In this document: positions 11,055 through 22,326 of the stretch, in pieces
Position numbering within the stretch: the first letter of the stretch is position 1
Layout: every line of letters starts with the position of its first letter
NCBI RefSeq assembly: GCF_029016285.1
Contig: NZ_CP091976.1
Coordinates: 1,054,001-1,118,000, forward strand
Origin: Vibrio sp. DW001
GTDB taxonomy: Bacteria > Pseudomonadota > Gammaproteobacteria > Enterobacterales > Vibrionaceae
Direction: 5' to 3'
Length of the DNA: 64,000 nucleotides
Notes under the pieces: model-generated
Told to the model about the DNA's origin: nothing
The model's input: the letters and a program-made list of their open reading frames with translations, nothing else
Database searches by the model: none
Made by a program: the position numbers and the translations under genes

Positions 11055-11240
11055 TTAATTATTACCATAGCAATATCAGCGAGATATTTCATTTATAGAT
11101 TGGCATTTATAGCGAAATTTTGTCGCCCATATACACTTTAAATATGAGACAATGATCCCAATTATATGGTTATTGTAGGCAGCCGACGACAAAGTCGCCT
11201 GTCAGTTACACCCAGAATTGTTATTTACAGAGAGTGAAAA

Positions 11241-11873
11241 ATGACTTTTGATTTAAATCTGATCCCTACCACCTTTGATATGTTGCATGGTGGCCTTGCT
11301 GCGTCTTCTCTTATGCTGCTTATTGTTGCCATTTCTCGCCAATCTAAAGTGATTGAAAAAACGGTTGAAAAGCCCATTGAAAAGATCGTTGAAGTAGAAA
11401 AACAAGTAGAGAAGATAATCGAAGTAGAAAAAATTGTTGAGGTTGAAAAGGTCGTTGAAAAAGTGATTGAAGTTGAGTCAAAATTGAAGACCGCTAACAC
11501 CGATTCTGCTATGCAATTGCTTTCAATTATGCAGCAAGAAGCAAGATTGATTGACTTTCTCAAAGAAGATTTAACCAGTTTTTCTGATGATGAAGTAGGC
11601 GCGGCTGCTCGCGTTATCCATTCAGGTGGCCAGAAAGTATTGTCTGAATATGTGGAGCTTTCTCACATAAAAAATGAGGAAGAAGAGACTCGAATTACCA
11701 TCGAGGAAGGCTTTAACCCTCAAGCGGTTCGCTTAATTGGTCATGTGACTGGTCGCGCACCATTTAGCGGCACGCTTATCCACAAAGGTTGGAAAGCAGA
11801 TAAAGTGAATTTGCCCAAGCTCGCTAAAAACTATAATGCTGCCATTATTGCGCCTGCAGAGGTAGAGCTTTAA
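11241..11873 (+). CDS. DUF2760-family protein with membrane anchor and VEK-repeat coiled coil
   Basis: A 210-residue protein of the DUF2760 type. Residues about 12-30 are hydrophobic (one N-terminal membrane anchor). Residues about 34-74 are a striking repetitive stretch of IEK/VEK/VEVEK units, expected to form a charged helical stalk. The C-terminal 130 residues (LLSIMQQEARLIDFLKEDL, then a segment ending VRLIGHVTGRAPFSGTL) form the conserved globular domain of unknown function. The ribosome site is AGAGAG before the ATG. Its TAA shares a base with the ATG of the next gene, an Hsp70 protein, so the two are translationally coupled. I infer a membrane-tethered partner of the two Hsp70 proteins. 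Confidence 0.75.
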   Translation: MTFDLNLIPTTFDMLHGGLAASSLMLLIVAISRQSKVIEKTVEKPIEKIVEVEKQVEKIIEVEKIVEVEKVVEKVIEVESKLKTANTDSAMQLLSIMQQEARLIDFLKEDLTSFSDDEVGAAARVIHSGGQKVLSEYVELSHIKNEEEETRITIEEGFNPQAVRLIGHVTGRAPFSGTLIHKGWKADKVNLPKLAKNYNAAIIAPAEVEL

Positions 11874-13759
11874 TGGAAAATGATATGCCTAAATACAGCG
11901 TTGGGATCGACTTAGGGACGACCCACTGTGTTTTATCTTTTGTTGAACTCAACAACGAAGACGCGATGGTGCAAGTACTTAATGTCCCTCAGCTTATCGC
12001 GGCGGGTCAGGTTGAAGAGAGAACTCAACTAGGATCGTTTGTTTATCAGCCTTCTGAATATGAAATGGGGGAAGGCTCCCGCGTGCTTCCGTGGACCACG
12101 ACACCGAGTGCTTTGGTGGGTGCCGTCGCACGAAATCTTGGTGCGAAAACACCAATACGTCTAGTTGCTAGTGCAAAATCATGGTTGTGTCATGGTGGAG
12201 TGAACCGGCGTGAGGCGTTTCTTCCTCAAGGGAGTCCAGAAGAAGTTGTAAAGATATCTCCATTACGAGCAACCGAGTTGTATCTAGAGCATCTAAAAGA
12301 AGCTTGGAATCATAAAAAACCTGAACATAAACTTGAAGTTCAAGATCTTACCCTTACCGTTCCTGCTTCTTTTGACCCTGCGGCTAGAGAACTTACTGCA
12401 GAGGCGGCGCGGAACGTTGGCTTCAACCATGTAACACTGCTTGAAGAGCCACAAGCTGCATTGTATAGCTGGATAAATAACAGCGAAGATCAATGGAGAA
12501 GTGAGGTTGATGTCGGCGATGTGGTTTTGGTCGTGGATATTGGCGGAGGTACTACCGATCTATCATTGGTTGCGGTAACAGAAGATGAAGGCAATTTAGG
12601 CCTAACTCGTGTCGCAGTTGGTGAGCATATATTGTTAGGTGGAGACAACATGGACCTTGCCCTTGCCTATCGTATTAAAACGAAAATGTCTCAAGAGGGC
12701 AAAGACCTACAGCCATGGCAAGTTCAAGCGATAACGCAAGCGTGTCGTGACGCAAAAGAGACCTTACTCAACGATATGGAGGTACAGTCTGTGCCTATCG
12801 TTATTCCGAGTCGAGGTTCAAAATTGTTGGGTTCTACACTGAAAACCGAGCTGACCAGAGAAGAGGTTCAACAGACATTGGTCGATGGCTTTTTCCCAAT
12901 GGTTCAAGTGCACGAACACCCTTTACAAAAGGCACGCAGCGCGTTGACTCATATGGGGCTTCCGTATGCTCAAGACGCCGGTATAACTCGCCACATCGCC
13001 GCCTTTTTATGTAAGCAGAGCAATGCAACTCAAGAGGTGTTCGGCGGGTTTTATGATGAGCATCCAGCCGTTGATTTTATTAAGCCAACCGCCATTTTAT
13101 TTAATGGTGGTGTGTTGAAATCTCGCCTACTAGAAGCACGCCTTACCTCAACGATTAATGCATGGATTGAGCAATCGAATCATCTTGAACAAGAGACCAG
13201 TTCTGAGCAATCAAAATGCCAAACGGCTAAGAAACTGAGTGGTCTAGATCTCGATCTTGCCGTTGCTAACGGTGCGGCATATTACGGAGCAGTAAGACAA
13301 GGTAAAGGTGTCCGCATTCGTGGTGGTATTGCCAGTAGCTATTACGTAGGCATCGAAAGTTCTATGCCTGCAATACCAGGAATAGCACCACCAATGGAGG
13401 CGATTTGTGTTGCGCCATTTGGTATGGAAGAAGGGTCATATTGTCAGGTTGAGAGTAAAGAATTTGGGTTGGTTATCGGCCAACCGGTTCAGTTTCAGTT
13501 TTATGGTTCTACTACTCGTCGTGACGACCAAGCAGGAACACATCTGGATTACTGGAGATCAGAAGAGCTCGAGGAGCTTCCAGAGATTCAGGTTACGCTT
13601 AGCGCATCAGAAGGGCGAAATGTCGGCGAGATTGTTCCCGTTACGTTGGCGGCACGAGTGACTGAACTTGGTACACTTTATTTGGAAGCGATGGCGAGTG
13701 ATAACGGCCAGAAATGGCATGTAGAGTTTGACGTGCGTGACGTTTCAAACGCGGAATAA
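11873..13759 (+). CDS. non-canonical Hsp70-family protein (first copy)
   Basis: A 628-residue protein of the actin/Hsp70 ATPase fold. The phosphate-1 loop is VGIDLGTTHCVLSF (residues about 8-21), the phosphate-2 loop is VVDIGGGTTDLSLV near 222, and LLEEPQAALYSW and ILFNGGVLKSR complete the nucleotide site. The C-terminal ~150 residues look beta-rich and could be a substrate domain, but they do not resemble the standard DnaK lid, and no EEVD-like tail is present. The stop/start overlap (TAATG) with DUF2760 implies coupling; a second ATG at 11885 is a possible start. No DnaJ or GrpE gene is nearby, so it is not the housekeeping DnaK. Confidence 0.85.
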   Translation: MENDMPKYSVGIDLGTTHCVLSFVELNNEDAMVQVLNVPQLIAAGQVEERTQLGSFVYQPSEYEMGEGSRVLPWTTTPSALVGAVARNLGAKTPIRLVASAKSWLCHGGVNRREAFLPQGSPEEVVKISPLRATELYLEHLKEAWNHKKPEHKLEVQDLTLTVPASFDPAARELTAEAARNVGFNHVTLLEEPQAALYSWINNSEDQWRSEVDVGDVVLVVDIGGGTTDLSLVAVTEDEGNLGLTRVAVGEHILLGGDNMDLALAYRIKTKMSQEGKDLQPWQVQAITQACRDAKETLLNDMEVQSVPIVIPSRGSKLLGSTLKTELTREEVQQTLVDGFFPMVQVHEHPLQKARSALTHMGLPYAQDAGITRHIAAFLCKQSNATQEVFGGFYDEHPAVDFIKPTAILFNGGVLKSRLLEARLTSTINAWIEQSNHLEQETSSEQSKCQTAKKLSGLDLDLAVANGAAYYGAVRQGKGVRIRGGIASSYYVGIESSMPAIPGIAPPMEAICVAPFGMEEGSYCQVESKEFGLVIGQPVQFQFYGSTTRRDDQAGTHLDYWRSEELEELPEIQVTLSASEGRNVGEIVPVTLAARVTELGTLYLEAMASDNGQKWHVEFDVRDVSNAE

Positions 13760-13831
13760 GTACCATTAGTAACGAAACGTCTTAGTAATACGTCGAATAA
13801 AATTCGTCATCTTCACCATGTGAGGAGCGAA

Positions 13832-13871
13832 TACCGTCTAGATTCTCTTTTTCACGGGAATCTAGACGGTA
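13832..13871. repeat. 14-bp inverted repeat between the two Hsp70 genes
   Basis: TACCGTCTAGATTC and its exact complement GAATCTAGACGGTA face each other around a 12-base loop. No T-run follows, so it is not a typical terminator. It sits 61 bases before the second Hsp70 start and could be a processing or stabilising stem in a shared transcript, or a protein-binding palindrome. Confidence 0.7.
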
Positions 13872-13948
13872 AATTTGTATAAAGCTAAATTCTCTGTTGA
13901 TTGACTGGCACTATTCGTTCGCGGGGATTTTTACCTAAAGGAAAACCC

Positions 13949-16777
13949 ATGGTCTCTGCTCGTTATTTGGTTGGTATCGATTTAGGCACGACGAATATTG
14001 TCGTTGCATACAGCGAGATTACTGAATCGCTCAAAGATTCACCAGTATCGATTTTTAAGATCGATCAACTCGTCGCTCCCGGTGAAGTAAGCCGAAAACC
14101 TCTGCTGCCCTCTTTTCGGTTTCATCCTGCTAAAGGACAAGTTTCTGAAAATGATATGGCTTTACCTTGGGAGAACGTACCTGTCGAAGGCGATCTTAAT
14201 CTTGCCATTGTTGGTGAATGGGCCAGAGAATTAGGAGCAAAGGTAGAAGGACGGCAGATATCTAGTGCCAAAAGTTGGTTGTCGCATCAAGCGGTGGATA
14301 GAGAGTCAGATATCCTGCCTTGGGTTGCGGGCAACGATGTCGATAAAGTCTCTCCCGTTACCGCCACCGCGAGCTATCTTAATCATGTACGGCAGGCTTG
14401 GAACTATCATAACCCTATTAATATCCTAGAAAAACAAGACGTAGTGATTACCGTACCGGCTTCATTTGATGAAAGTGCTCGAAAGTTGACCCTCCAAGCC
14501 GCAAAACAAGCTGGTTTGAGCAAGGTCGTGCTGTTGGAGGAACCGCAAGCGGTATGTTACGACTGGTATGCGCGCCATAGCGATTCAGCTAAATCAAAGC
14601 TAATAGATGTGCCTCTTATCTTGGTATGTGATGTGGGAGGAGGGACCACAGATCTCAGCTTAATTGAAGCGAATCATAACGATGATGAACTGGCGTTGAA
14701 CCGTATTGGGGTTGGTAATCACCTCATGTTAGGAGGTGATAACCTTGATCTTGCATTAGCGCACCTTGCAGAGCAACGATTTAACAAGGATAAAAAACTT
14801 AACGCGTCGAGTCTTTCTAAGTTAATTCAGCAAACGCGTAAGGCAAAGGAACAACTGCTGAGTAAAACCGAACAAGAACAAGTTAAGATAACCATGTTGG
14901 GCGGTGGTTCGAGGCTTATTGGCGGCACCAAAAGTGTCGATTTATCGAAGCATGAAGTACATCAATTGGCGCTAGATGGGTTCTTTCCAAAGGTGAGGAT
15001 AACCGATTTACCGGACAAAAGGCGCAAAGCAGTGATTGAATTTGGTCTGCCTTATGTTGCTGACCCGGCAATTACTAAACACATGGCTGAATTCATCTCT
15101 CAACATCAGTCAGTTGCAAGGCATGCGCTTGGATTGGCTATCACGAGTGATGAAAAAAACGATCAGCTCGTTGTCCCTGTAGGCATTTTGCTTAACGGTG
15201 GTGTCTTTAACAGTGAACTGGTTACCGAGCAGGTCACAACTATCCTGAGTAATTGGCGGGGTAGCCCTGTTACTGTATTAGATAACCCACACCCGGATCT
15301 TGCTGTCGCCTTAGGAGCGGTTGCTTTTGGTAAAGCGCGTCGTGGTGCCCAGTTAAAGATTGGAGGGGGGGCCGCTCGTTCGTATTTCTTACATTTACCT
15401 GAGAAAAAAGGCTTTGGCAATGCTATTTGTCTATTGGCCAAGGGCATTGAAGAGGGGCAAGAGATCCGATTATCAGGACGGAAATTTGCACTGACCCTAG
15501 GTGAACCTGTTCGATTTAATTTACTGACTTCTATCCACGATACGTTAAGCGATAATAAACCAGCCAATAATGGCGCAATGTATAAGGTAAATACGGACGT
15601 TTTTACGCCGTTGCCACCTTACATTACTAGCTTAGAACGTATGGAAGGTACAGAAGAACGCCAAGCTAATCAGAAACAACGGGTTGAAGTTCAGTTGGCC
15701 TGCAAACTGACGGAGGTGGGTACATTACAATTGGAGTGCGTAAGTGCGGATGATGCAGCCAATCGTTGGGCGGTTGAATTTGAGATAAGAAAACAAGCGG
15801 ATGTGACTCAGGAATCGAAAACATCACATCCCAAGCTTCAAGCATCACTCGATCTCATCACCACAGCATATAGTGGAAATAAGAAAAACGCCGACCCTAA
15901 GGTGATCAAAACTCTGGTGAAAGAACTCGAACAGAAACTTGGCAAAAGGGCTGATTGGGATGTTTCTACATCAAGGCAGATTTTCGATGCCTTCTCTAAA
16001 GGAAGAAAACGCCGTCGTCGCTCAGAGCAACATGAAAAGAACTGGCTTCGACTTTCTGGTTACGCACTTAGACCCGGATACGGCGACCCTACCGATGAAT
16101 GGCGTATCGAGCAGTTGTGGGCGCTATACCAACAAGGCATTCAATATCAGAATCATCAAGGTTGGAGTGACTGGTGGGTATTTTGGCGACGAGTTTCGGG
16201 AGGGCTAAGTGCGGATCAACAAGAAATAATCGCGACCGATATAGTGAAGTATTTGCACCCTGGCTCATTGCGAAACCCCAAGGTGGCTAAAGAGGCACAA
16301 GAAAAAGATTACGAAGCGATGGTTCGACTTGGTGCGTCTTTAGAGCTTCTGCATACCGAAGATAAGGTCTTAATGGCAAAGTGGTTCCTGAACAAGGCAG
16401 TTAATGAAGCGCAGCATTCTCAGGCCCATTGGTGGGCATTAGGCAGGATCGCCGCACGCCAACTTATGTATGGCAGCCAACACTCGGTATTACCACGCGA
16501 ACAAGTTGAACAATGGCTGCCGACATTATTAGCGCAGAACTGGATTAAAGAGCCTATCATCGGTTTTGCAACGGTGATGATGTGTCGTAAAACAGGCGAC
16601 CGTTTGTTCGATATTTCTGACGAATTTAGGCAGCAAGTTATAGAAAAACTACAACGTAGCAAAGTGTCATCAGCATGGATTGAACTAGTACAGCAAGTCA
16701 AGGAGATGGATGCCTCCGAGTCAAAACAAGCCTTTGGTGATGCGTTACCACACGGGCTTCATCTTGTTAAGGATTAA
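13949..16777 (+). CDS. large Hsp70-family protein with helical C-terminal extension (second copy)
   Basis: A 942-residue relative of the preceding gene. The ATPase core has GIDLGTTNIVVAYS near residue 9, VVLLEEPQAVCYDWY, LVCDVGGGTTDLSLIE and ILLNGGVFNSELV. A beta-rich part follows. The last ~300 residues are a Trp-rich, mostly helical region (KNWLRLSGYALRPGYGDP, WWVFWRRVSGGLS, HWWALGRIAARQLMYG) like the DUF3731 extension known from some proteobacterial Hsp70-like proteins. I choose the ATG at 13949 because AAAGGAAA lies just upstream and the GIDLGTT motif then starts at the usual place; an ORF start at 13901 lacks this. It is probably one operon with DUF2760 and the first Hsp70. Confidence 0.85.
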   Translation: MVSARYLVGIDLGTTNIVVAYSEITESLKDSPVSIFKIDQLVAPGEVSRKPLLPSFRFHPAKGQVSENDMALPWENVPVEGDLNLAIVGEWARELGAKVEGRQISSAKSWLSHQAVDRESDILPWVAGNDVDKVSPVTATASYLNHVRQAWNYHNPINILEKQDVVITVPASFDESARKLTLQAAKQAGLSKVVLLEEPQAVCYDWYARHSDSAKSKLIDVPLILVCDVGGGTTDLSLIEANHNDDELALNRIGVGNHLMLGGDNLDLALAHLAEQRFNKDKKLNASSLSKLIQQTRKAKEQLLSKTEQEQVKITMLGGGSRLIGGTKSVDLSKHEVHQLALDGFFPKVRITDLPDKRRKAVIEFGLPYVADPAITKHMAEFISQHQSVARHALGLAITSDEKNDQLVVPVGILLNGGVFNSELVTEQVTTILSNWRGSPVTVLDNPHPDLAVALGAVAFGKARRGAQLKIGGGAARSYFLHLPEKKGFGNAICLLAKGIEEGQEIRLSGRKFALTLGEPVRFNLLTSIHDTLSDNKPANNGAMYKVNTDVFTPLPPYITSLERMEGTEERQANQKQRVEVQLACKLTEVGTLQLECVSADDAANRWAVEFEIRKQADVTQESKTSHPKLQASLDLITTAYSGNKKNADPKVIKTLVKELEQKLGKRADWDVSTSRQIFDAFSKGRKRRRRSEQHEKNWLRLSGYALRPGYGDPTDEWRIEQLWALYQQGIQYQNHQGWSDWWVFWRRVSGGLSADQQEIIATDIVKYLHPGSLRNPKVAKEAQEKDYEAMVRLGASLELLHTEDKVLMAKWFLNKAVNEAQHSQAHWWALGRIAARQLMYGSQHSVLPREQVEQWLPTLLAQNWIKEPIIGFATVMMCRKTGDRLFDISDEFRQQVIEKLQRSKVSSAWIELVQQVKEMDASESKQAFGDALPHGLHLVKD

Positions 16778-17022: not shown

Positions 17023-19797
17023 ATGTTTGATAGGAAAATTGCAATTATTGTATTGAGTTCAGCTTGCATGCTTTGCCTCGCGGCCGTATTTACGCTCTTT
17101 ACTATTAAATCTAGCTTTGAAAACCATCTTGCTGATTCACTAAAAGTCATAAGAGATACGACTCATCAAGCTATTATGATCTGGGCATTTGAAAATGAAC
17201 AGAGAAGTAAAATGTTAGCTAGCGATAGTTTTATCCTTACTCAAACCGAACAACTGCTACAACAACGCGCGCATAACTTATCTTTGATTGGTGACCCAAT
17301 ACAACAGGAGATAAGAGCCTATCTATATCCCTTTGTAAAGCTGCATAATCTTCGAGGTTTCTTCATTATAGATCCAAATAATGTGAGCCTTGCGTCTACT
17401 CGAGACGTCAATACCGATACTGAAAATTTACTGGTTAGACAGCCGGGTTTTTTAGATAGAATCTGGCAAGGAGAGACGCTGATTTCGCTGCCTCAATTTT
17501 CAGATGTCGCGTTGCCTGGAATAGACGGCGAGTATGTTGTTGATTATCCAACCATGTTTGTTGCTAGTGGTATTCGCAACAGAGAAAACAAAATTATCGC
17601 GATATTAGCCTTACGATTAGACCCGATGACACACCTTCAGACTCTTGTGAATAGAGGACAAATTGGTCAATCAGGTGAGACTTATTTGATAGATAAAAGT
17701 GGATATTTACTGACGCAAAGTCGATTTGCAAAGCAAATAATGGCGTATAAACCTGATTTGGTATCAAAACAAAGCGTACAGAATTTAAAAGCCGTCGTTC
17801 CAACCAAATTAGAGGTGTCTAAAAATGGGTTACTATTATTAACAAAAATGGCGTCGAGTGTTGTAAAAGGTGAGAATGGCTGGGATACGAATGGATATAA
17901 AGATTACAGAGGTATTCCTGTCGTGGGAGCTTGGCTGTGGAACGATAGGTATCAATTCGGTCTTACAACAGAACTTGATCGTATCGAAGCATATTTACCT
18001 TTTAATCAAACAAAACAAGGTTTTATTTTTTTCACTGGTTCTGCATTAGTTCTTTTTGTTTTTGTCGCGATTGTGTTTTCTAAATTATTTTCAAAATTGA
18101 GAAGCCGAGAAATAAAGTACAGTAGTTTATTCGAGAATGCCGGGGACCCATTACTCATTTCTGATTGTAACACTGGGCTGGTTGTATCTTGCAACCAGCT
18201 TGCGAGCGAGTTCTTACAATACCCCACTTCTGAGCTTCAAGGTATGCACCTTTCACAACTAAGGACGGAGTCAACATATAATGATGTGTTGGACGATATC
18301 AACGATGTCGTCACCCTTGGAAGTAAAAGAATTGAAACAATATACCAAACGAAATCTGGAAAATTAATACATGTGGAATCCAACGCAAAATTAGTATCCT
18401 TTGGAAAGGAAAAAGCGATTCTGTCGATAATAAGAGATATGACAGCACAAAAAGAATACGAAGAAAACTTGAGGGTGTTAGCGAATACCGATGCGTTGAC
18501 AAACCTAGGAAATCGAGTCGCGTTTAACACGCAGATTAGTCATAAAATAATAGAAACGTCGACGGATAAAAACAATCTCGCGTTGATAATTGTGGACATC
18601 GACGAGTTCAGAATAATTAATGATGCTTTGGGTCATCGATTTGGTGATGAGATCTTAAAGAAAGTGGCGAAAATCTTATCCAATTCGATCCCTTTGAAAG
18701 CACGGGCTTTTCGATTTGCCTCCGATGAATTTATTGTGGCTGTACCCGTTGTGGATAGAAAAGAGACAGAGCAAATCTGCGACGCTATTCAGAGGTCAGT
18801 ATTGGAACCGTTTGTGGAAGGCAATAATAGAACTCAAATCTCATTTAGTATTGGTGTTGCGTTATCCCCACAAGATGGCGCGGACGTAACGACACTTTTA
18901 CAATCGGCAGATACTGCACTTCATACTGCGAAACAACAAGGCCGAAATCGGTATGTTCACTTCACCGAAGAAATGAAGCACAAAGACGCACTTCACGTGG
19001 CTATTTCATCCTCTCTAGATGTCGCTATTGCTAATAATGAATTCACTTTGGTATTTCAACCTGTAGTGACTTCTGTTGATGGTCAATTAGTCGGTGCAGA
19101 AGCGTTGTTGCGCTGGGAAAGTGCAGATATGGGTAACATTAGACCTGATGTTTTTATTCCTATCGCTGAACATAATGGAAAAATTCTAGATATTGGCCAG
19201 TGGGTTCTAAATGAAGCGTGTAGGGTTCGTGCACACTGGCTAACCGAGGGCTTGGTCGATATGAAGATATCCATCAACGTCTCTCCCATTCAGATTCTCT
19301 CATCTAATATGCCGCAGTTGGTTCAGGATGCATTGAGTAAACATAGGTTGAAGCCAGAGCATATCGCAATTGAAATAACGGAGGGTGTCTTTTTGGGGCA
19401 CCACGACAAGCAGATAGAGCAACTTTGTAAACTTAGAGAGATGGGTGTTTCTCTCTATTTAGATGATTTTGGTACAGGTTATTCATCATTGAGTTATGTG
19501 CACAAGTATCCATTCGATATTATTAAATTGGATAAAAGCTTTGTACAAGATATTAAATCAAACCCAATGTCTAGAACGCTCGCAAAATCCGTCATTTTGA
19601 TGGCAACCAGCCTAGACATTGAGGTGATCGCTGAAGGGGTGGAAACACAGTGGCAAGATAACTACTTGAGAAACCAAGGTTGTCATCGTATTCAAGGTTA
19701 TTTTTACGGAAAGCCAATAGAATCAGCAGAATTTCTAGAAAAATGGAACGCATCCGCCGATCAAATCACGTTAAAATTAAAGAAGGGTCACAATTAA
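17023..19797 (+). CDS. Cache-PAS-GGDEF-EAL c-di-GMP protein
   Basis: A 924-residue inner-membrane signalling protein. A membrane segment at about 7-27 is followed by a ~300-residue periplasmic sensor of the double-Cache type, a second segment at about 333-354, a PAS domain from about 365, GGDEF from about 487 and EAL from about 670 to the end. The GGDEF signature reads ASDEF (near 566) and there is no RxxD inhibitory site, so cyclase activity is doubtful. The EAL domain keeps its metal and catalytic residues (AEALLRW, INVSP, EITEG, LDDFGTGYSS, KLDKSF, AEGVE, QGYFYG), so it is probably an active c-di-GMP phosphodiesterase tuned by a periplasmic ligand. Another c-di-GMP gene follows on the same strand. 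Confidence 0.9.
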   Translation: MFDRKIAIIVLSSACMLCLAAVFTLFTIKSSFENHLADSLKVIRDTTHQAIMIWAFENEQRSKMLASDSFILTQTEQLLQQRAHNLSLIGDPIQQEIRAYLYPFVKLHNLRGFFIIDPNNVSLASTRDVNTDTENLLVRQPGFLDRIWQGETLISLPQFSDVALPGIDGEYVVDYPTMFVASGIRNRENKIIAILALRLDPMTHLQTLVNRGQIGQSGETYLIDKSGYLLTQSRFAKQIMAYKPDLVSKQSVQNLKAVVPTKLEVSKNGLLLLTKMASSVVKGENGWDTNGYKDYRGIPVVGAWLWNDRYQFGLTTELDRIEAYLPFNQTKQGFIFFTGSALVLFVFVAIVFSKLFSKLRSREIKYSSLFENAGDPLLISDCNTGLVVSCNQLASEFLQYPTSELQGMHLSQLRTESTYNDVLDDINDVVTLGSKRIETIYQTKSGKLIHVESNAKLVSFGKEKAILSIIRDMTAQKEYEENLRVLANTDALTNLGNRVAFNTQISHKIIETSTDKNNLALIIVDIDEFRIINDALGHRFGDEILKKVAKILSNSIPLKARAFRFASDEFIVAVPVVDRKETEQICDAIQRSVLEPFVEGNNRTQISFSIGVALSPQDGADVTTLLQSADTALHTAKQQGRNRYVHFTEEMKHKDALHVAISSSLDVAIANNEFTLVFQPVVTSVDGQLVGAEALLRWESADMGNIRPDVFIPIAEHNGKILDIGQWVLNEACRVRAHWLTEGLVDMKISINVSPIQILSSNMPQLVQDALSKHRLKPEHIAIEITEGVFLGHHDKQIEQLCKLREMGVSLYLDDFGTGYSSLSYVHKYPFDIIKLDKSFVQDIKSNPMSRTLAKSVILMATSLDIEVIAEGVETQWQDNYLRNQGCHRIQGYFYGKPIESAEFLEKWNASADQITLKLKKGHN

Positions 19798-19884
19798 GTT
19801 AACCAATTGAAATAAAAGAATAAAACTGTATTACTATTATAGATAATGATGGTAGTGAATTGTCGCTTAATGAGGGGACGTTAC

Positions 19885-22326
19885 ATGTCAACGCTCAAAC
19901 TTGTTCAAGAAGAATTGATTGGGTTTCATTCAAAACGAGAGATTTCTTGGACATGGAATACTGAAACGGAAGTGTTCTCTATTGATTCTGTGTTGATCCG
20001 TCAGTATTTAATGATCAATAAAGAAATTGCAACGATTGAAGATTTTCTCGCACTTTTTAGTAGTGAAGATCAAAAACGGATTGTTTCCTTGTTAAAAAGT
20101 GTCTATGGCGATGAAAAAACGAAGCCAGTAAAGGCTTGCATTGCGACAGAAGATGCGAGTGTTAGTTTAAGCGTAGTTACGGCGATAAAAGTATCTGAAG
20201 GCTTAATCGCGGGTTCCTTAATGCCACTCTTTTTGTCGCCAACGCAAGAGGACCTCTCAACTTTTTTTCATCAGTTATTCGAAAATGAACACCATGGTAT
20301 GTTGATTACCGATGGGAAAACCCGAATAGTCGCTTGCAACAGTTTATTTGAAAAGACATCGGGTTATCGTATTGATGAACTCGTTGGGAAAAAAACCTCG
20401 ATCTTTAATGCTGGTAAGCATGGCCCGACATATTTTGACGAAATGTGGTCCAAAATAGAGCTGAATGGATTTTGGAGCGGTTTGATTTTAAGTAAGCGAA
20501 AATCAGGTATTGTTGTACCGGAAGAGTTATTGATTCAGCGTATTACTTCCATACGTGGCAATATTTATTATTTGGGAATGACTGTTGATTTATCAGATAC
20601 ACCTTATCGAATTGCCGGTATTGAACACGGTGGTATTGAGCTCTTAACACAACTCCCAAGTGACAATGATTATTATCTAAGGGTGAAATCTACGTTTACT
20701 TCTAAAGAAGAGACTCAAGGTCTGATGGTGATTTCTTTTGTACCCAATTTTGAAAGCGATGTTGAATTTGAATACAAGAAACAGCTGGCCAACGCGTTTG
20801 ATCGAGAGAATAAAAACATTATTGCCGGCTTTCTAAAAGCCAGTGTTTTTTCTATTGCAATTTTGTACGAGCGTAGCCTCGATAAGCCTCACTCACTATC
20901 CATTTACGAAGCAATTCGAAGCTGTTTTAATGACATTAAGATACACATTGATGCCATTATTTATAAACATATTTCTCAATTATCCATTGGTGTTTCGGTT
21001 CTTGGTATGGATGCTACCTCCCCAAGCCGACTAATCTCACACTCTTTAAAAGCGATGTATGAGAAGCACTCATCAGGAAGCAATCATATCTGTTTTTATA
21101 ATAGAACGTTGCATGAGAAAGTTAAGAGGCGTGATAGCTTAGAAGCAATTGTGGTGGACTCAATTAAACACAATAAAATTGAGGTCTATTTTCAACCGAT
21201 CATTTGTACTGATAATTGGAAGGTAACGAAATTAGAGGCTCTCTGTCGATTTAGAGACGGAGAGAATAACATTCTCAATACTGAAGAGATGGTTAGGATC
21301 GCGGAAGATTTGGACTTGGTTGCACAACTCGATCTTGTGGTTGCGGAGATTGCACTTAAAACCAGAGATCTACTGGTGCAAAAGTTTGGTACAGATGTTG
21401 AGTTATCAATCAATATTTCACTCAATTCCAAAAAATCGATTAAGGTGATATTGGGTGATTTAATAAATATGTGTCGTGGATACAGTCAACATATACCCTA
21501 TACAATCATTGAATTGACAGAAACAGCGTATTTTAATAGCGAAAATGAAGATGTGGAACAGTTATCAAAATTAAGAGAGATTGGTTTTAGGGTTGCGATT
21601 GATGATTTTGGAACGGGTTACTCTTCGTTTTCCTACCTCAAAAACAATAATTTTGATATCTTAAAAATAGACAGAGAGTTTGTAAAAGATTTGGTCTACG
21701 GCTCGTCTAATTATCATATCGTTAAAACGATTACATCGCTAGCGCATACCCTAAACGTACAGGTTGTCGCCGAAGGGGTAGAGAACCTATCGGAAGTCGT
21801 GTTGTTAGGTGATTTAAAAGTGGATTACCTGCAAGGGTATTACTTCGAGAAACCGCTGCCATTTGATAAGTTGCAACCAAACATAAACTATGTAAGAAAA
21901 CTTAATGACTTAAAAGAGACAAAGAGCGCGGTGATAGAATTGATTGCGTTTCCACCAACCCTATCACCAGGGTGTAACCTCGGCGAAGTTAGAGAAATAT
22001 TTAGTAATACCAATTTCACCACGCTTCCCGTTATTGTTGATGATAAATGTGTCGGGTATCTAACGCGTGAAATTTTCAATTTGCATGCCTCTACGTCTTT
22101 AGGGACGGCAACCGAAACGATGCAAGACTATCGCTCATTATCAAAGCCCGTTAGTGCGATGATGGATGCAAAATTTGTCGAGGTTCATAAAACAGTTGGG
22201 CTTGGTGAGATTCATGAAAAAATTAAGAATAAAAATAAATTTCCTTGGATAGCAATCGATGATTCTGGTGAATATTTTGGATTAGTCGATGCTTTGAGTG
22301 CGATACAGTTTATCAATGAACAATAG
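19885..22326 (+). CDS. PAS-degenerate GGDEF-EAL protein with two C-terminal CBS domains
   Basis: A soluble protein of 813 residues. An N-terminal region is followed by a PAS domain (about 130-240, with KTSIFNAGKHGPTYFDEMW), a GGDEF-like fold at about 250-420 that has lost the GGDEF signature but ends in SIGVSVLGMD, then an EAL domain from about 430 (KLEALCRF, IELTETA, IDDFGTGYSSFSYL, KIDREF, AEGVE, LQGYYFEKP). The last ~125 residues look like a CBS pair (TLSPGCNLGEVREIFSNT and VSAMMDAKFVEVHKTVGLGE), which often bind adenine nucleotides. I start at 19885, where GAGGGG precedes the ATG. It is probably a c-di-GMP phosphodiesterase gated by PAS and nucleotide inputs. Confidence 0.85.
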   Translation: MSTLKLVQEELIGFHSKREISWTWNTETEVFSIDSVLIRQYLMINKEIATIEDFLALFSSEDQKRIVSLLKSVYGDEKTKPVKACIATEDASVSLSVVTAIKVSEGLIAGSLMPLFLSPTQEDLSTFFHQLFENEHHGMLITDGKTRIVACNSLFEKTSGYRIDELVGKKTSIFNAGKHGPTYFDEMWSKIELNGFWSGLILSKRKSGIVVPEELLIQRITSIRGNIYYLGMTVDLSDTPYRIAGIEHGGIELLTQLPSDNDYYLRVKSTFTSKEETQGLMVISFVPNFESDVEFEYKKQLANAFDRENKNIIAGFLKASVFSIAILYERSLDKPHSLSIYEAIRSCFNDIKIHIDAIIYKHISQLSIGVSVLGMDATSPSRLISHSLKAMYEKHSSGSNHICFYNRTLHEKVKRRDSLEAIVVDSIKHNKIEVYFQPIICTDNWKVTKLEALCRFRDGENNILNTEEMVRIAEDLDLVAQLDLVVAEIALKTRDLLVQKFGTDVELSINISLNSKKSIKVILGDLINMCRGYSQHIPYTIIELTETAYFNSENEDVEQLSKLREIGFRVAIDDFGTGYSSFSYLKNNNFDILKIDREFVKDLVYGSSNYHIVKTITSLAHTLNVQVVAEGVENLSEVVLLGDLKVDYLQGYYFEKPLPFDKLQPNINYVRKLNDLKETKSAVIELIAFPPTLSPGCNLGEVREIFSNTNFTTLPVIVDDKCVGYLTREIFNLHASTSLGTATETMQDYRSLSKPVSAMMDAKFVEVHKTVGLGEIHEKIKNKNKFPWIAIDDSGEYFGLVDALSAIQFINEQ

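Follow-up and report, generated by a model that had tools for sequence, protein, structure and literature searches.

What do two unusual Hsp70s, encoded one after the other behind a DUF2760 protein, do in a bacterium that also carries DnaK? The question is raised by a locus of Vibrio sp. DW001 lying in a 64,000-nucleotide stretch of DNA (the window), which is part of the second contig of the 5.46-Mb genome. The three genes, like all features below unless stated otherwise, lie on the + strand: a DUF2760 protein of 210 aa (11241..11873; Pfam PF10816, E = 1.5e-52; AlphaFold model with a mean predicted local distance difference test score, pLDDT, of 77); HSPa, an Hsp70 of 628 aa (11873..13759; Pfam HSP70, E = 5e-22); and HSPb, an Hsp70 of 942 aa (13949..16777; Pfam HSP70, E = 4.6e-20), its length being counted from the ATG at 13949 where the mechanical open reading frame (ORF) begins at TTG 13901. 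A sequence-only reading of the window had proposed that the DUF2760 gene is translationally coupled to the 628-residue Hsp70, that the 942-residue Hsp70 follows, and that no J-protein or GrpE gene is present. The reading frames agree with this arrangement, the HSPa start and the DUF2760 stop overlapping by 1 nt, and a scan of the ten flanking ORFs found no J or GrpE domain at E <= 1e-5. The GrpE and DnaK genes sit together on the other contig of the genome, as does DnaJ by reading of its ORF.

The genes proved almost inseparable. Among 398 Pseudomonadota genomes, DUF2760 was found in 28 and DUF3731, the C-terminal domain of HSPb, in 27, all of which fall within the 28; in the lone genome with DUF2760 only (G064), the contig stops just past HSPa. 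Gene order was assessed at 95 loci in which both the DUF2760 and HSPa genes were readable, made up of the 80 best relatives from a protein-alignment search of genome contigs (at least 591 pattern matches, at least 523 confirmed relatives) and 15 genome stretches, with species that may recur in both sets. DUF2760 and HSPa were on the same strand at all 95, overlapping by 1 nt at 48 and by 4 nt at 38 (86/95 in all), and HSPb was present at 92, always on that strand; it is missing at L120 and at L085 and L142, where the contig ends. Separate occurrence in most genomes, which would have refuted the sequence-only reading, is rejected on the genome overlap and the gene order, and DUF2760, HSPa and HSPb are one conserved unit. 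No neighbouring gene was conserved across groups when ORFs of at least 100 aa at 80 loci were compared among Vibrio, Aliivibrio, Photobacterium, other gamma and beta loci: the only two clusters found in all five groups are the unit's own, and some neighbours recur inside Vibrio. DUF3731 occurs in each of the 24 further genomes of the genus that were searched, which points to a core function. It is also in a single genome from a different family of the order, and is not in the order's other 15. DUF2760 proteins are also named from Terrimicrobiaceae and Chthoniobacteraceae, beyond the Pseudomonadota; DUF2760 genes occur in Verrucomicrobiota and Rhodospirillales, and V. natriegens has a DUF2760 protein. 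Neither domain is found in any of 14 named control genomes, which may be why the unit has been little studied. A mobile or phage origin was rejected, given that none of 16 pattern matches in viral contigs was a confirmed relative and that DUF3731 is genus-wide. As to anti-phage defence, the only PADLOC matches were partial ones to PDC-M61B, covering a portion of the ATPase domain in HSPa (residues 208-305, E = 9.5e-8) and in HSPb (residues 223-316, E = 3.6e-7). In V. sonorensis (L094) and V. mimicus (L091) the HSPa frame is split, and in L094 that of HSPb too, through decay or sequencing error.

Both Hsp70s score above the PF00012 cut-off. The ATPase residues K70, E171, D194, T199 and D201 are invariant in all 84 aligned copies of HSPa and HSPb, in accordance with the earlier view that both keep their nucleotide-binding loops. 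The residues at which J-proteins dock have gone a different way: in all 84 copies N170 is Glu and T173 is replaced, and R167 is retained in 18. The linker is changed as well. In HSPa the region between the two domains, placed by eye between the end of the nucleotide-binding domain (NBD) and the start of the beta domain, reads GKGVRIRGG (13301..13327) in place of the hydrophobic VLLLD of DnaK, and a motif scan in which DnaK and HscA served as positive controls found a DnaK-type hydrophobic linker in 0/84 copies. The best-supported reading is of a stress-regulated Hsp70 heteropair, linked to the membrane, that has abandoned the usual J-protein interface. By sequence comparison HSPa and HSPb are old paralogues, on a very long branch (2.9 changes per column) from DnaK, HscA and other Hsp70s.

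The substrate-binding half is kept without its usual lid. In HSPb the NBD covers residues 1-465 (13949..15343), as defined by the model and by PDB alignments to the NBDs of DnaK, BiP and Hsp110, and the beta substrate-binding domain covers residues 478-615 (15380..15793), several DnaK and BiP alignments reaching model residue 615-618. Beyond it the model places an all-helical tail (helices 630-929) where the lid of an Hsp70 would stand, and this tail contains DUF3731, rich in Trp and Arg (residues 692-939; 16022..16765; PF12531, E = 3.6e-95) and helical according to the model. By our own count on the translation there are 14 Trp in ~310 residues, as expected from the Trp-rich helical extension described earlier. 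The matches listed from a structure search with HSPb fell on the NBD and the beta domain. HSPa terminates at the end of the beta substrate domain in a profile alignment (HSPa 5-619 to HSPb 1-609), and its beta-sandwich domain is assigned solely through this alignment to HSPb. The normal lid is therefore missing from both proteins, as the sequence-only reading had stated.

The DUF2760 protein has a predicted membrane helix at residues 14-32 (11280..11336; mean hydropathy 1.84; helix H14-32 in the model) and a conserved domain at residues 87-209 (11499..11867), in which short helices are followed by a beta part closing with a conserved IAPAEVE. Of the 41 aligned copies, 28 have a predicted membrane helix (Kyte-Doolittle value of at least 1.6), as have 112/112 further, distant DUF2760 proteins. 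The description of a membrane-anchored coiled-coil protein thus stands for the anchor in most copies; what was called a coiled coil is a repeat of Val, Glu and Lys, found mainly in Vibrionaceae copies, with residues 36-64 modelled at pLDDT < 50. No DnaJ family was among the Pfam matches listed for DUF2760, and HPD was not in its invariant columns.

Control of the unit was analyzed through its upstream region. The heat-shock promoter consensus is CTTGAA-N13-15-CCCCAT. A diverged heat-shock (sigma32)-like promoter, consisting of CTTTAA, 15 bases and CCCAAT, lies at 11136..11162, with two mismatches to this consensus. The exact consensus occurs at three sites in the genome, and that one of these (L155:1501-1526 = G000:C1:710861-710886) is ~140 bases upstream of grpE, followed by dnaK, supports the consensus used. 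In the Vibrionaceae, an element of the form CTTGAATATGnTAnnATnnGCCCCnATTT is found upstream of DUF2760. When 250 bases upstream were scanned in 51 Vibrionaceae sequences, including that of the window, 36 had a match with at most two mismatches, compared with 3.2% of shuffles and 1/51 reversed sequences; the sequences are related by descent, so these counts are not independent. In 28 sequences anchored on a TTGAnTnTG core, mean identity was 76% at the non-anchor positions, against 41-49% in the flanks. Outside the Vibrionaceae, the promoter was found at 0/30 loci within 250 bases, the start used often lying inside the coding region. At five Vibrio loci (L086-L090; V. halioticoli, V. ezurae and others), the element has no extended -10 and retains CTTGAA and CCC; at L088-L090 CTTGAA is followed by an inverted copy, TTCAAG, in the place of which L086-L087 have CTCAAG.

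Published data, which we draw from excerpts of the papers cited, bear on the unit through V. cholerae. There VC1375-1374-1373 is the putative copy, going by the name 'DnaK-related protein', the operon and DUF2760 proteins named from V. cholerae. HapR has a binding site between VC1375 and VC1376 and activates the promoter of VC1375 both in vivo and in vitro (PMC10328515). A search for this V. cholerae HapR site at the V. metoecus and V. mimicus loci, allowing up to three mismatches, gave 0 matches. A screen for biofilm-repressed genes lists VC1374, a member of the operon VC1373-1375 (PMC9201469); the gene also appears at -2.68 among transcripts differing between wild type and a vc1639 mutant (PMC5636140). 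In a delta-ribD comparison VC1373 is down 1.04 (log2) along with ibpA, clpB, dnaK, dnaJ, htpX, hslU, hslV, groES and groEL (PMC5816637). A B. pseudomallei dehydrogenase mutant lost a 65-kDa 'Hsp70 family protein' and had lower heat tolerance (PMC7085900); this protein is probably HSPa, because by our own reading the forward primer given in the excerpt translates to GEHILL, an HSPa motif, and its tie to the heat phenotype is putative. 'DnaK-related' proteins that may be HSPa or HSPb were carbonylated after ultraviolet B (PMC3706606) or differentially expressed (PMC6413534). Three further hits were discarded on the passages at hand: VC1374 is a strain name in PMC9608740, nothing in PMC9717686 ties its Hsp70 fragment to the unit, and PMC4618957 names only dnaK and groEL. 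The PMC literature searched mentions neither DUF2760 nor DUF3731, and a search for Vibrio rpoH heat shock with a 'DnaK-related' protein returned none. The earlier statement that no function is established therefore holds for the two domains, but transcriptome tables do list VC1373-VC1375, and HapR is proven to target the VC1375 promoter.

The reading that we favor, tentatively and at a little under an even chance, is that the unit is a dedicated machine for stress proteostasis, an Hsp70 heteropair tethered to the inner membrane and probably independent of J-proteins. The three products would work as a single machine on the cytoplasmic side of that membrane. DUF2760 would be its membrane platform, co-produced with HSPa via translational coupling, and would act as a co-chaperone by bringing HSPa to the membrane and setting its nucleotide cycle. 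HSPa and HSPb, ancient paralogues, would be working ATPases that have given up both the canonical lid and J-protein control, the latter through replacement of the docking residues and hydrophobic linker. HSPb may be the large partner, as Hsp110 is to Hsp70, with clients bound by the beta domain and the DUF3731 tail. The role in stress would hold at least for the Vibrionaceae, where the promoter has a heat-shock-like appearance; in V. cholerae the quorum-sensing regulator HapR activates it as well.

Several observations weigh against this proposal. R167 is retained in 16/44 HSPb copies, and a J-protein encoded elsewhere in the genome could act via other contacts. A clear membrane helix is absent from 13/41 DUF2760 rows, of which two (L143, L154) were aligned in N-terminally truncated form and seven belong to the Massilia/Noviherbaspirillum type. 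Gene order has exceptions: L120 has DUF2760 and HSPa with no adjoining HSPb, DUF3731 not being found in that metagenome-assembled genome by a search that leaves its absence unproven, and in G119 HSPb is ~2.9 kb from HSPa with at least two other ORFs between. As for the promoter, 15 of the 51 Vibrionaceae upstream regions do not have it, the window's own copy is weak, and 0/22 Massilia-group loci have it within 750 bases, so that heat-shock-type control is indicated for the Vibrionaceae only. The Vibrio element also holds a sigma70 extended -10, TGnTAnnAT, and is hence not purely of the sigma32 type; its position inside the element makes it likely that both sigma70 and sigma32 act there. The delta-ribD table lists VC1373 without VC1374 and VC1375 (PMC5816637), and our searches found no interaction, ATPase or phenotype data on the unit.

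The retained R167 would also fit an ordinary specialized Hsp70 pair served by the general DnaJ and GrpE, with DUF2760 as a client or plain membrane receptor. The genome retains GrpE, DnaK and DnaJ, DnaK can be aligned with both the NBD and the beta domain, and the promoter element and delta-ribD profile match those of general heat-shock genes. However, no copy of either paralogue keeps N170, T173 or the hydrophobic linker, and if DUF2760 were just a client, there would be little reason for it to accompany the pair in every genome. We regard this explanation as unlikely. We think it rather improbable that DUF2760 is a far-diverged, membrane-tethered nucleotide exchange factor of the GrpE type, which would make the trio a J-less Hsp70 and exchange-factor system. 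A weak structural match to GrpEL1, the sole fold hint for DUF2760, points this way, and the earlier claim of no GrpE, which holds for a linked gene, may need qualifying on that account. Sequence comparison does not support a GrpE-like DUF2760: profile tests for GrpE homology were not above shuffles, and PF01025 was neither among the four families matched by the window's DUF2760 nor among the 25 listed of 30 for 41 members. A Foldseek search with DUF2760 gave no match at E <= 0.001.

It is quite improbable, in our estimation, that the unit is not a chaperone and that its Hsp70 fold is an ATP-driven switch or scaffold, MreB-like or Ssz1-like, assembling something at the membrane. The length of the branch from DnaK and HscA, an altered linker that suggests a different interdomain coupling, and the presence among the fold matches of the lid-less Ssz1 would favor it, yet both paralogues retain the beta substrate domain, and the Vibrionaceae promoter and co-variation with heat-shock genes argue for a chaperone. 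Slimmer than the favored heteropair, too, is the chance of a more far-reaching form of it: a J-protein-free, three-gene Hsp70 cycle at the inner membrane, regulated by heat shock and quorum sensing, in which DUF2760 would be a GrpE-type exchange factor (homologous or convergent), HSPa and HSPb mutually regulating ATPases, and DUF3731 a new type of lid.

The sequence-only reading was right not to force the unit into a known system; the module is genuine, tightly conserved and little studied. It shares with DnaK-DnaJ-GrpE an Hsp70 NBD and beta substrate domain, the ATPase residues and, in the Vibrionaceae, a heat-shock-like promoter. Unlike that system, it has two paralogous Hsp70s without a canonical lid and with replaced J-docking residues and linker, and it includes a membrane protein and has neither a J gene linked to it nor a proven GrpE. 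The closest NCBIfam resemblance is to HscA of HscA-HscB (HSPa to TIGR01991, E = 1.5e-23; HSPb to NF003520, E = 1.1e-24), but the scores of 83.2 and 86.9 bits, the latter the best overall, are far under the cut-offs of 708.55 and 620, and an HscB-type gene was not found among the flanking ORFs scanned. The two Hsp70s score 83.2 and 83.1 bits with TIGR01991, and 54.6 and 63.6 bits with TIGR02350, whose cut-off is 822.55. The Hsp110-Hsp70 pair (Sse1, Apg2) is eukaryotic, whereas here both genes are in one bacterial unit and both products are without J-docking residues. In the ribosome-associated complex, a lid-less Hsp70, Ssz1, is in a fixed complex with a partner, zuotin, which is a J-protein. 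Structures of this complex (6sr6 and 5mb9) were among the fold matches; DUF2760, unlike zuotin, has no J-domain match among the families listed. A separate operon in Magnetococcales (G056; L198:5846-8619) encodes, by eye, a J-domain-like protein, with a divergent GrpE and a 587-aa Hsp70; its GrpE and Hsp70 genes are also found at L199-L203, and three of the six genomes (G056, G064, G068) have DUF2760 too. In this mini-operon, as with the putative co-chaperone gene DUF2760 of the unit, the gene before the Hsp70 overlaps its start, here by 4 nt; unlike the unit, the mini-operon includes the J-domain-like gene and a Pfam-recognised GrpE.

Hsp70s are usually taught as machines driven by J-proteins. 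The unit is a widespread and nearly inseparable bacterial set whose two Hsp70s have the ATPase residues and are without J-docking residues, allosteric linker and lid. If the proposal is true, what an Hsp70 needs for ATP-driven work would be separable from what it needs for J control, the orphan domains DUF2760 and DUF3731 would become chaperone parts, and a whole genus would share a stress system stationed at the membrane.

Upstream of the unit, on the - strand, lies an ATP-binding cassette transporter gene set with a family 3 solute-binding protein. Directly downstream (17023-22326) are genes for a GGDEF/EAL protein and an EAL protein, a family not seen as a fixed neighbour across groups at the 80 loci. 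Within the unit, HSPa and HSPb are separated by 189 nt containing a perfect 13-bp inverted repeat (ACCGTCTAGATTC / GAATCTAGACGGT; 13833-13870) with no T-run after it. It does not belong to a repeat family, the exact arm occurring at three genome sites, two of which are the hairpin itself. A hairpin at this position could serve attenuation or processing of the message.

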